DNA of 64,000 bases, taken from Sphingobacteriales bacterium TSM_CSS (GTDB lineage Bacteria; Bacteroidota; Bacteroidia; Chitinophagales; UBA2359). The notes beneath the pieces are model-generated. The model saw only the letters and a program-made list of their open reading frames with translations, was not told where the DNA came from and ran no database searches. The position numbers were made by a program, and so were the translations under genes. Shown in pieces: positions 60,398 through 64,000 of the stretch. Numbering within the stretch: the first letter of the stretch is position 1; the number at the start of each line of letters is the position of its first letter. The stretch is from contig NBMY01000071.1 of NCBI GenBank assembly GCA_002212985.1, forward strand, positions 1 to 64,000, given 5' to 3'.

Positions 60398-60597
60398 CGT
60401 GTGTTTTTATTGAATGGCACATTTTTTAATGCACTTTTTGTCGCTTAAAGATTTTTTCTGCTTAAATTTGAGTAATTTCAATCCGGTTTAACCAACTTTC
60501 CAACCATAACAACGTTTTTCTGCCAGATTGCCTATGTAAAAAAGTTTTACACGTTGTTTTAATCTTTACTCATTAACTTGTAACATTGCTATTGAAT

Positions 60598-61794
60598 ATG
60601 AAAAAAGTGTTTTGCCAGATATTGCTGGCTTTTACAGCCCTTAGCGGCTGCTTTTCTGTTGTACAGGCACAGGTAACCAATACCGGTCAATTAGATGGTC
60701 GGGTGAACACCGTTTTTACCTCTATTCCGTTTTTGCGCATTAACCCCGATGGCAGAACCGGCGGTATGGGCGATGTGGGTATTGCTACCGATGCCGACCC
60801 CGCTGCCTTGTATCACAACGTAGGTAAATTGGCCTTTGCTCCCAAAATGGTAGGCGTAAGCCTTACCTATACCCCGTGGCTGCGCGAGTTGGTAAACGAC
60901 ATTTACATTGCCTATGTGGGCGGTTATTACAAAATTGATGAATTGCAGTCAATAGGACTTTCCATGCGCTATTTCTCTTTAGGCAATATCAATTTTACCG
61001 ATATTACCGGAAACGATGCCGGACAATACAACCCCAATGAGTTTGCCTTCGACCTGGGTTATTCCCGCCGTTTGTCCGACAAATTTGCTACCGGCATTAC
61101 CCTTAAATATATTCGCTCCGACCTTGCCCGCGGACAAGAAGTAGGAAGCGGAAATATTGTAAAAGCAGCTCAGGCTGTAGCAGCCGATATAGGCTTTTAC
61201 TACAAAACCCCTCTTAACCTTACCCCCGGCGGAAGCACCCTTTCGCTCGGCGCCGCTTTTACCAACATTGGTAACAAGGTATCTTACCTCAACGACGATA
61301 CCCGCGATTTTATACCCATTAACATGGGGCTTGGCTCTGCCCTGAAAATGAACATTGACGACCACAACTCCATTATGGTAGCAGTCGACATGAACAAACT
61401 CATGGTACCCACCCCCGATACCCTTGACCTTGACGGCAACTTGGTGCCCGATACGCGCGAAAAACCCCTGCTTAGCGGCATGTTTGGCTCTTTCAGCGAT
61501 GCCCCCGGCGGATTTAAAGAAGAATTGCAGGAGCTAATGTTTTCAATTGGGGCAGAGTATTGGTACAACAACCAGTTTGCCCTCAGAACCGGCTATTTCA
61601 ACGAGCATAAATACAAAGGCAACCGTAAATTCCTTACCGTAGGGTTGGGTTTACGCTACAGCGTTTTTGGGTTTAATTTCTCTTACCTCATTCCGGTTAG
61701 CGGCCAACGCAACCCGTTAGACAACACTTTACGCTTCTCCCTCACTTTTGATTTTGACGGAAAAGAAAAAGCCGATAGCAGCACCGAAGAATAA
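60598..61794 (+). CDS. porV: T9SS outer-membrane protein PorV
   Basis: Outer-membrane beta-barrel of the type IX secretion system, 398 residues from ATG 60598 (TTG 60586 possible). PorV carries cargo from the translocon to the PorU sortase-like attachment complex. Landmarks: SIPFLRINPDGRTGGMGDVG, ATDADPAALYHNVGKLAFA, LTYTPWLRELVNDIYIAYVG and the C-terminal LIPVSGQRNPLDNTLRFSLT. The signal peptide has LSGC but ends in VVQAQ. porU usually lies directly upstream; here a TolC-family gene and a long gap do. Two likely cargo proteins are encoded in the window. Confidence 0.94.
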   Translation: MKKVFCQILLAFTALSGCFSVVQAQVTNTGQLDGRVNTVFTSIPFLRINPDGRTGGMGDVGIATDADPAALYHNVGKLAFAPKMVGVSLTYTPWLRELVNDIYIAYVGGYYKIDELQSIGLSMRYFSLGNINFTDITGNDAGQYNPNEFAFDLGYSRRLSDKFATGITLKYIRSDLARGQEVGSGNIVKAAQAVAADIGFYYKTPLNLTPGGSTLSLGAAFTNIGNKVSYLNDDTRDFIPINMGLGSALKMNIDDHNSIMVAVDMNKLMVPTPDTLDLDGNLVPDTREKPLLSGMFGSFSDAPGGFKEELQELMFSIGAEYWYNNQFALRTGYFNEHKYKGNRKFLTVGLGLRYSVFGFNFSYLIPVSGQRNPLDNTLRFSLTFDFDGKEKADSSTEE

Positions 61795-61845
61795 AACCAA
61801 TATTGCCCTAAAACTGCGGCAACAGGTAAACCCGATGCAGGTGTA

Positions 61846-61889
61846 AAAACAGCCCGAAACTCCGGAGGTTTCGGGCTGTTTTGTTTTTC
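61846..61889 (+). terminator. Rho-independent terminator after porV
   Basis: AAAACAGCCCGAAAC (61846-61860) pairs perfectly with GTTTCGGGCTGTTTT (61868-61882), followed by GTTTTT. Confidence 0.92.
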
Positions 61890-62350
61890 TAACGCAAGGC
61901 ACAAGCAAGATTGAAAGAAATTTCAGGCAAATAGTTCAATCATCCTTGCAAAAAATGCTGCTTTTTATACCAACCTTCTCAATGCACCCGCCTTTCCTCT
62001 AAAAAAACTACCTTGGCTGCATTTCCGGCAAGGTGGAGGAAATGTTGCTATTGAACAACAAACTCAACCCAACCAAGCGCAGTTTCCCTTGCTGCAACAA
62101 ATTGCGGGGGCAAGTTACATTTATGGTGTGTAATGATTGCCCATGCTTGCGCGAGGCTATGCCTTGCGGGTTACGCTGTTTACGCGGCTAAACCTTGAGC
62201 GGGCAGGGCAACTTTGTTTCGGTAACCAAAATATTCTTATTCCAAGCAAAAAACCAACTCCAAGTTCCCATGCGCTTATACAGCCCGCTAAATTTGCAAT
62301 TTCTTGCTGCTGGTAAATTGTATATACTGAAGACTACCTAAATATGTAAA
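61890..62350. other. intergenic region left of mobile element
   Basis: About 460 bases between the porV terminator and the mobile element. Apart from the open frame noted at 61915-62133, I see no feature. Confidence 0.4.
61915..62133 (+). pseudogene. possible gene remnant without start codon
   Basis: A frame of 72 codons is open from a TGA to TAA 62131-62133 and contains no ATG. The translation has a plausible protein composition (for example FYTNLLNAPAFPLKKLPWLH, FPLLQQIAGASYIYGV) but matches no family I know. It could be the 3' remnant of a lost gene or chance. Confidence 0.2.
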
Positions 62351-62358
62351 ATTTTAAT

Positions 62359-62810
62359 GGTTCTTCCGTACATTTAGCGCAAAATTACTCTCTTTGGGGA
62401 TTGGCGCTAACAGATATAAATTACTCACCCCCAGCCCCTCTCTCCGATAAATCGGCAATGAAAAGGCTGCTAAATAATCAACTTACACGTGCCGATTTAC
62501 CGCAAAGAGGGGAGCAGCCCTTTGTTAGCAGGGAAAGGTGTAGTTGAAAAGAACTCTGCTCCCCCTCTTTATCGGAAATGCCGGGTTGATGGTTGTTTTT
62601 TGCGTGAAGGTTGAGCATTTCCGATAGGGAGGGGGCTGGGGGGGTGGGTTAAGAAGGGGGCAAGTTGGGGGCAAGGCAGATTAGAATGAGTAGGCAAATA
62701 AAATACCGAAAATCAAACAAACGCTCATCTGAAAGGGAGTACAATTCTTTTTATCACAATCCAAAGGTAATAGTCGCTTTCCTATGATGCGCTAAAAAGT
62801 CGGAAGAACC
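62359..62810. mobile_element. 452-bp non-autonomous IS-derived element, ISL3-like ends
   Basis: Terminal inverted repeats start GGTTCTTCCG at both ends and continue, after four differing bases, with TTTAGCGCA (19 of 23 matches). The element is flanked by perfect 8-bp duplications ATTTTAAT (62351-62358 and 62811-62818). Ends beginning GG with 8-bp duplications are typical of the ISL3 family. No transposase frame is present, so it is a MITE or an internally deleted copy. The right duplication covers the stop codon of the adjacent lipoprotein gene. Confidence 0.82.
62427..62648. repeat. nested inverted repeats inside the mobile element
   Basis: Outer arms CACCCCCAGCCCCTCTCTCC and (reverse complement of the right side) CACCCCCCCAGCCCCCTCCC flank two inner inverted arms containing GCAAAGAGGGGAGCAG and ATAAAGAGGGGGAGCAG. 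A related copy of the inner arm occurs at 17611-17640. Confidence 0.7.
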
Positions 62811-62813
62811 ATT

Positions 62814-63314
62814 TTAATTACTGCTTTTCTGTTCACCACACCCCGCCGGCAGCAGTGTTTTTGTAAACTCTTGCCATATAAAAGGCAATTCTTCTTCAAT
62901 AAGCTGCTTGTTATAGGCAATAAAGCTATCCTTTACAAAATAGAGTTTGCTGTATGGCGTTAGCAGGTTATAGCGGGCAAGTGTATCGGCGCTTGTAAAT
63001 TGGAGGGCGGTGTTGGGTGAGTTTTTTACTGCCTGCTGTAGCAACGAGTCTGGTGTGCTAAGCACAAGGCATTTTGCACAGGGAAGTTGCATGATTTGTT
63101 GTGCAAACTGCCTTATTTTTTCTGTACAAGAGCCGCAAAAAGACGGGTTAATGAGCAAGATGAGTTTATTGGAATCGACAATGTTTTTGCACAATTTATT
63201 TGTTACAAAAGAGGCGGTAAGAGGGTCAATATCATTTACGGTATTGGTTGTTTGGTTTGAAACGCATGAGTACCACAGAAAGAACATAGAAAATAAGCAA
63301 ACTATGTATTTCAT
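62814..63314 (-). CDS. thioredoxin-like lipoprotein with CGSC motif
   Basis: Exported lipoprotein of 166 residues, function unknown. The lipobox is FFLWYSC (Cys17). The body begins like a thioredoxin fold (KLILLINPSFCGSCTEKIRQ) with a CxxC motif, and a second pair lies further on (PCAKCLVLSTPDSLL). FVKDSFIAYN fits a C-terminal strand. The ATG overlaps the stop of the upstream gene by four bases (ATGA), so they are translationally coupled. Its TAA lies in the target duplication of the mobile element. Confidence 0.72.
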   Translation of the reverse strand: MKYIVCLFSMFFLWYSCVSNQTTNTVNDIDPLTASFVTNKLCKNIVDSNKLILLINPSFCGSCTEKIRQFAQQIMQLPCAKCLVLSTPDSLLQQAVKNSPNTALQFTSADTLARYNLLTPYSKLYFVKDSFIAYNKQLIEEELPFIWQEFTKTLLPAGCGEQKSSN

Positions 63315-63745
63315 TGCAGTTTTTTGAGTTTTTTCTTTTTGGGGTTGAGCATGATGTTATACACCGAAAACAGCCCGTATTGGGTTAGGGTAATGGTGTT
63401 TATTTCTTTAAACTCAAACCGGCTTTGGTTGGTAAGCGGTTGCAAGATTTTAGCCCCGGCGTTTTCGCAAATTACTAATATTCTGTTTCCTTTTTGTTTG
63501 CCAATTAAACTTACCAGATTTTCGCGGCAGTATTTTGAGCCGGTACAAAACTGAAAATGCACTACAAAAACTTTGTCGTAGTGGGCAAATACAATAGTAG
63601 AGTCAATGGTGGGCAGCGTTTGTTCAAAACTACGGTAGCTTACCTGTTGCTGGGCTTGTAAAGAACAGCCCAATAACAAGCAAAGTAAGAACAGCAGGGC
63701 TGCGCTAGTTTTTGGTGAAGGTGATTTTGAGAATATTGTATTCAT
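63311..63745 (-). CDS. small exported protein in DUF4221 cluster
   Basis: Unknown function; 144 residues. A signal sequence (SAALLFLLCLLLGCSLQAQ) may include a lipobox (LLLGC). The mature part is compact, with VVHFQFCTGSKYCRENLVSL, NRILVICENAGAKILQPLT and a basic end (LNPKKKKLKKLQ). The FCTGSKYC pair might be redox-active or metal-binding, but no fold can be assigned. The start overlaps the DUF4221 gene by about 41 bases, and the stop overlaps the next start (ATGA). Confidence 0.68.
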   Translation of the reverse strand: MNTIFSKSPSPKTSAALLFLLCLLLGCSLQAQQQVSYRSFEQTLPTIDSTIVFAHYDKVFVVHFQFCTGSKYCRENLVSLIGKQKGNRILVICENAGAKILQPLTNQSRFEFKEINTITLTQYGLFSVYNIMLNPKKKKLKKLQ

Positions 63746-64000
63746 TTCCCATGGCTTTTGAAAAGGGGCCGTAATTTATAAATAATCCTTGTTTGGAAGT
63801 TGCCACCAAAAACAACCCAAAACACATTTTGGGTAAAAGCGTTTCGCCCATCAGATTAAAATTTTCATCTAAAACCATAACCGATATTTGTCTGTCTTTG
63901 TAAGTGTTAAAAAAGCCCTGCTCATTTTTTTGGGGCATTGGTAATATAAAGAACCGGTAATACAGGTTTCGGTATTCATCGTAAATCAATTTTTCATATC
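63705..64000 (-). CDS. DUF4221 propeller-type protein, 5' end outside window
   Basis: C-terminal part of a gene that continues beyond the right edge; the frame is open to position 64000. At least 98 residues are visible. They match the end of DUF4221 (6-bladed beta-propeller) proteins: YDEYRNLYYRFFILP, then SVMVLDENFNLMGETLLP, then SKQGLFINYG. These are usually exported lipoproteins of Bacteroidota found with thioredoxin-like genes. First gene of a unit with the two small exported proteins downstream. Confidence 0.8.
   Translation of the reverse strand, partial: YEKLIYDEYRNLYYRFFILPMPQKNEQGFFNTYKDRQISVMVLDENFNLMGETLLPKMCFGLFLVATSKQGLFINYGPFSKAMGNEYNILKITFTKN

Follow-up and report, generated by a model that had tools for sequence, protein, structure and literature searches.

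A probable ISL3-derived non-autonomous element enclosing a dispersed repeat at the stop codon of a putative lipoprotein gene

At the 3' end of a putative lipoprotein gene of Sphingobacteriales bacterium TSM_CSS, two copies of the 8-mer ATTTTAAT enclose a short stretch of DNA, and one of these copies contains the stop codon of the gene. What kind of element is this insert, of which parts is it made, and how could it have come to lie at a stop codon without altering the protein? We find that it is very probably a non-autonomous, MITE-like derivative of the ISL3 family in which two ISL3 ends surround an independent dispersed repeat.

Ends and Target Site Duplication

The window is the whole stretch of DNA that was analysed, 64,000 nucleotides in length. 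Rereading its positions 61500-64000 places an insert of 452 bp at 62359-62810, between the two copies of ATTTTAAT. The features at its margins are as follows.

62351-62358, unstranded: left target site duplication, 8 bp, ATTTTAAT; present as a single copy in a paralogous empty site
62359-62381, plus strand: left terminal inverted repeat, 23 bp, GGTTCTTCCGTACATTTAGCGCA; 22 of 23 positions identical at C152:39067-39089
62788-62810, minus strand: right terminal inverted repeat, 23 bp, GGTTCTTCCGACTTTTTAGCGCA when reverse-complemented
62811-62818, unstranded: right, gene-side copy of the 8-bp duplication, holding the TAA stop (62816-62814, minus strand)
62814-63314, minus strand: target gene from the open reading frame list, encoding a 166-aa putative lipoprotein, frame intact

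A preliminary description of this locus had proposed perfect 8-bp duplications, inverted ends and the lack of an encoded transposase, and each of these points is borne out. ATTTTAAT occurs exactly at both sites, and the probability that such 8-bp identity arises by chance at given positions is about 2e-5. The terminal repeats, which start with GGTTC, agree at 19 of 23 positions with the first 10 perfectly matched, and a search pattern built from them has 2 matches in the window compared with 0.02 expected from window shuffles. The element is short, and its largest open reading frame does not exceed 49 aa. The same description had also called the insertion recent, and this part is not established. 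It rests on the identity of eight bases, which dates nothing, so the duplications do not give the age of the insertion, and the one relative that shares the left end is only 72% identical inside.

The Lipoprotein Gene and a Paralogous Empty Site

The 166-aa reading frame carries a lipoprotein-like signal and has the C-terminal sequence KSSN, and its product has no match in Pfam and none among PDB sequences. As had been proposed, the insertion struck the TAA and the stop was retained. Because the target includes this codon, the gene-side copy of the duplication keeps it and the protein is unchanged. No special mechanism is needed for such a target: an AT-rich 8-bp site at the end of a gene contains TAA by coincidence, and the involvement of the stop codon follows from this.

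Relatives had been suggested as the place to look for an empty site with a single ATTTTAAT, but a search of 15 related genomes recovered neither the lipoprotein gene nor, in consequence, an orthologous empty site. The comparison consequently rests on a paralogous remnant, and this does have the expected form. A 69-bp remnant duplicate of the 3' end of the lipoprotein gene lies on the same contig at C11:65578-65646 (L049 4579-4647), 2.8 kb from the element and 1.6 kb past the window. It is identical at 68 of 69 positions to the joined flanks, meaning the flanking DNA minus the element and one duplication copy, and it contains only one ATTTTAAT. A duplicate that postdated the insertion would have part of the element at this point. 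The remnant also suggests that the gene already ended in the same TAA before the insertion. The far-side part of the match, TGTAAA, is only 6 bp long and would arise by chance with a probability of about 3e-4, which makes the support from the empty site good but not overwhelming.

Relationship of the Ends to ISL3

The source assembly comprises 4.49 Mb in 173 contigs and is 87% complete. Two stretches of the element resemble ISL3 sequence, and they extend somewhat beyond the terminal repeats.

62359-62384, plus strand: ISL3-type left end, about 26 bp with an approximate boundary; common to a truncated sister on contig C152 (alignment GGTTCTTCYGTACATTTAGCGCAAAATT)
62773-62810, minus strand: ISL3-type right end, 38 bp; matches the transposase 3' end of a truncated insertion sequence (IS) at C35:2870-2907

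The 23-bp right terminal repeat recurs without mismatch at two places in the same genome, C35:2870-2892 and C65:15089-15111. Similarity to the C35 insertion sequence continues for 38 bp at 92% identity and then stops. This end directly adjoins a 67-codon remnant that corresponds to the last 45 positions of the DDE_Tnp_ISL3 model (PF01610; E 2e-17). The second copy of the C35-type end, C65:15089-15142, sits at a contig edge and interrupts an open reading frame of unknown function, with the contig stopping 54 bp inside the insertion sequence. Such an edge is typical of a repeat, probably collapsed, that an assembler cannot cross, so a full ISL3 copy probably exists in the genome outside the bin. 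At this contig end (L020 5825-6143), the interrupted frame bears a signal peptide and is broken by the ISL3 end after about 89 codons (...RPVFVLLGNYW).

Intact elements of this type occur in relatives:

L052 663-1942: intact ISL3 element from the same order, 1280 bp, with ends GGTTCTACAAG and the duplication TATTTTAA on both sides
L050 1608-2864: intact ISL3 element from the same class, 1257 bp, with ends GGTTCATCAC and the duplication GCTTTTTT on both sides

In both, the ends are of the GGTTC type, the 8-bp duplications are perfect, and the reading frames match PF01610 over the full model. The duplicated L052 target TATTTTAA is of nearly the same AT-rich type as ATTTTAAT.

A full-length parental insertion sequence with both ends of the element was not found in its own incomplete assembly, and the end pattern likewise recovered none in 60 relatives. 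Comparing the 67-aa fragment with 395 genomes of the class yielded no parent (best match 49% identical), and none was found in viral contigs. Plasmid and phage collections contained no DNA similar to the element, and matches in Rfam were at chance level. The left end occurs elsewhere in the assembly only at C152. The search for a complete ISL3 element with the same ends, which had been proposed as a check, has therefore turned up the truncated right ends at C35 and C65 but no complete element in the genome's own assembly.

The assembly thus lacks an intact transposase bearing the element's ends, which is what might be seen if a different transposase family, one with similar ends and 8-bp duplications, had made the insertion and the likeness to ISL3 were confined to the ends. 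We consider this exceedingly improbable, because the 38-bp right end is so closely matched by an end lying immediately next to the C-terminal part of an ISL3 transposase, and because ISL3 elements of relatives share both the GGTTC ends and the 8-bp duplications. An ISL3 origin of the ends is therefore preferred. The ISL3 part of the earlier label, ISL3-like MITE, is supported by the ends, the duplication and the link to the C35 fragment, but ISL3 sequence accounts for no more than ~26 bp at the left edge and ~38 bp at the right.

A Dispersed Repeat Nested within the Element

Between the ISL3-type ends lies sequence of a different character.

62385-62772, unstranded: nested dispersed repeat, rich in hairpins; it has inverted ends of its own, imperfect and of TTATTCCCTTTYGGGT type; limits uncertain by 1-3 bp
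62435-62512, unstranded: inner hairpin 1, 23-nt arms, 87% complementary
62561-62635, unstranded: inner hairpin 2, 21-nt arms, 90% complementary

When the element is compared by BLAST with its own genome and with relatives, the interior is matched at many loci and the ends are not. Pieces that lack the ISL3 ends represent the left part of the interior on contigs C115, C50, C62, C79 and C48 and the right part on C62, C167 and C141. The interior also occurs at loci in the two other species of the genus (G001 and G002), or three species in total, and the ISL3-type ends are absent from both of these genomes. Across the three genomes, seven free ends break off at one shared boundary (TTATTCCCTTTYGGGT..., TTATTCCC-type), and their flanks are unrelated. 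The left end of the inner repeat is an inverted copy of its right end: for 11 of 12 such comparisons none of 2000 shuffles reached the observed score, and for the twelfth 3 did. In the window the corresponding boundaries coincide with the points where the ISL3-like ends give way to the interior, at about 62384/62385 and 62772/62773, and the element can consequently be viewed as an ISL3 shell of ~64 bp around a repeat of ~390 bp. The inner repeat family is defined by homology and not by its end pattern, since a pattern search that allowed 3 mismatches found it no commoner than the control.

Only one full copy of the element is present in the assembly, together with one truncated, diverged relative at C152:39067-39377 that has the same left end and junction, an interior 72% identical, and no right end. 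The suggestion that other copies should be sought has thus led to one truncated relative but to no second complete copy, and the designation "MITE family" is thin on this basis. Because the C152 relative shares the left end and junction and its interior has diverged to this extent, the nested arrangement predates both insertions.

These observations bear on whether the 452 bp could instead be one ancestral ISL3 MITE without any nesting, in which case copies that lack ISL3 ends would be degraded members. It is true that none of the free inner repeats recovered had both of its ends intact, and that the C152 relative combines the left end with the interior. Degradation would be expected to leave random endpoints, however, whereas the free ends share one boundary against unrelated flanks, and the interior pieces are more widely spread than the ISL3 ends, reaching both genomes from which those ends are missing. 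We regard this explanation as unlikely and retain the nested arrangement.

The predicted RNA fold of the element is stronger than that of shuffled sequence (z -4.8), and the element sits between converging genes. Both features might suggest that it has been exapted, for example as a 3'-end RNA hairpin or terminator, and kept for that function. This seems very improbable: a terminator search found no terminator-like site in the element, the fold is produced by inner repeats that also occur at scattered sites elsewhere, and no conservation at this locus is visible in relatives. A non-autonomous ISL3 derivative with a nested repeat remains our preferred description.

Proposed Origin and Related Elements

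The ends, the duplication, the empty site, the relation to ISL3 and the nested interior are all read from the DNA sequence. The most probable history behind them is as follows. An ISL3 insertion sequence may have lost its body to leave a minimal shell of two ends, and this shell would then have acquired the inner repeat; presumably the repeat entered the shell and not the reverse. Mobilisation was likely in trans, by an ISL3 transposase that would recognise the GGTTCTTCCG... ends. A staggered cut in ATTTTAAT, an AT-rich 8-mer located where the lipoprotein gene ends, could then have received the unit, and gap filling would have duplicated the 8 bp, with the gene-side copy retaining TAA.

One published ISL3-like transposon (PMC5559704) has ends of 25 bp and AT-rich target duplications of 8 bp. 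The present element resembles ISL3 insertion sequences in its GGTTC-type inverted ends of ~23-25 bp, its perfect AT-rich 8-bp duplication, and a right end that differs little from an ISL3 fragment of the same genome, but it lacks a transposase and retains no more than about 64 bp of ISL3 origin. An ISMac21-related ISL3 MITE of Methanosarcina acetivorans is 179 bp long and has 6 copies, with IR 22 and DR 7 (PMC3852290, Table 4). It is likewise transposase-less, retains nothing of ISL3 but the ends, and gives rise to a duplication; the element described here differs in its bacterial host, its length of 452 bp, its one full copy, and an interior that is another dispersed repeat. Tn3-derived TIMEs and mosaic non-autonomous elements (PMC4133298) are units with inverted ends that do not move autonomously and can form mosaics with unrelated sequence. 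Our element is similar in these respects, although it belongs with a different transposase family and its passenger is a non-coding repeat. One paper that treats ISL3, MITEs and Bacteroidetes together concerns another IS family.

Because ISL3-derived MITEs and AT-rich 8-bp duplications have already been reported, the element adds to the known IS-derived MITEs, and the nested repeat is its only unusual trait. It offers a clean bacterial example of an ISL3-derived non-autonomous element for which the duplication, a partner IS fragment and an empty site all come from one genome, and it shows that about 64 bp of transposon shell are enough to enclose a repeat unrelated to it. In other respects it is a tidy but ordinary case of a known phenomenon and leaves general views unchanged. 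It is doubtful that ISL3 ends repeatedly capture and spread genus-specific modular hairpin repeats; if they do, the intergenic repeat would spread partly by hitch-hiking in minimal ISL3 shells and not by its own mobility.

Additional Repeats and Hairpins

The loci compared here contain a genus-specific family of intergenic repeats that are modular and rich in hairpins; their inverted ends are of the TTATTCCCTTTYGGGT type, and their middles are interchangeable. They include L022 4225-4487, L025 (C115), L023 (C50), L026 (C167), L013 (C141), and L027-L034 (G001 and G002). Just upstream of the element, 23 bp at 62144-62166 of the window are 87-91% identical to the middle module of C167 and C141, a weak match that may be due to chance. 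A strong intrinsic-terminator-like hairpin, with 16 pairs followed by a T-rich tail, lies at 61846-61882, 3' of the plus-strand gene at 60586-61794.
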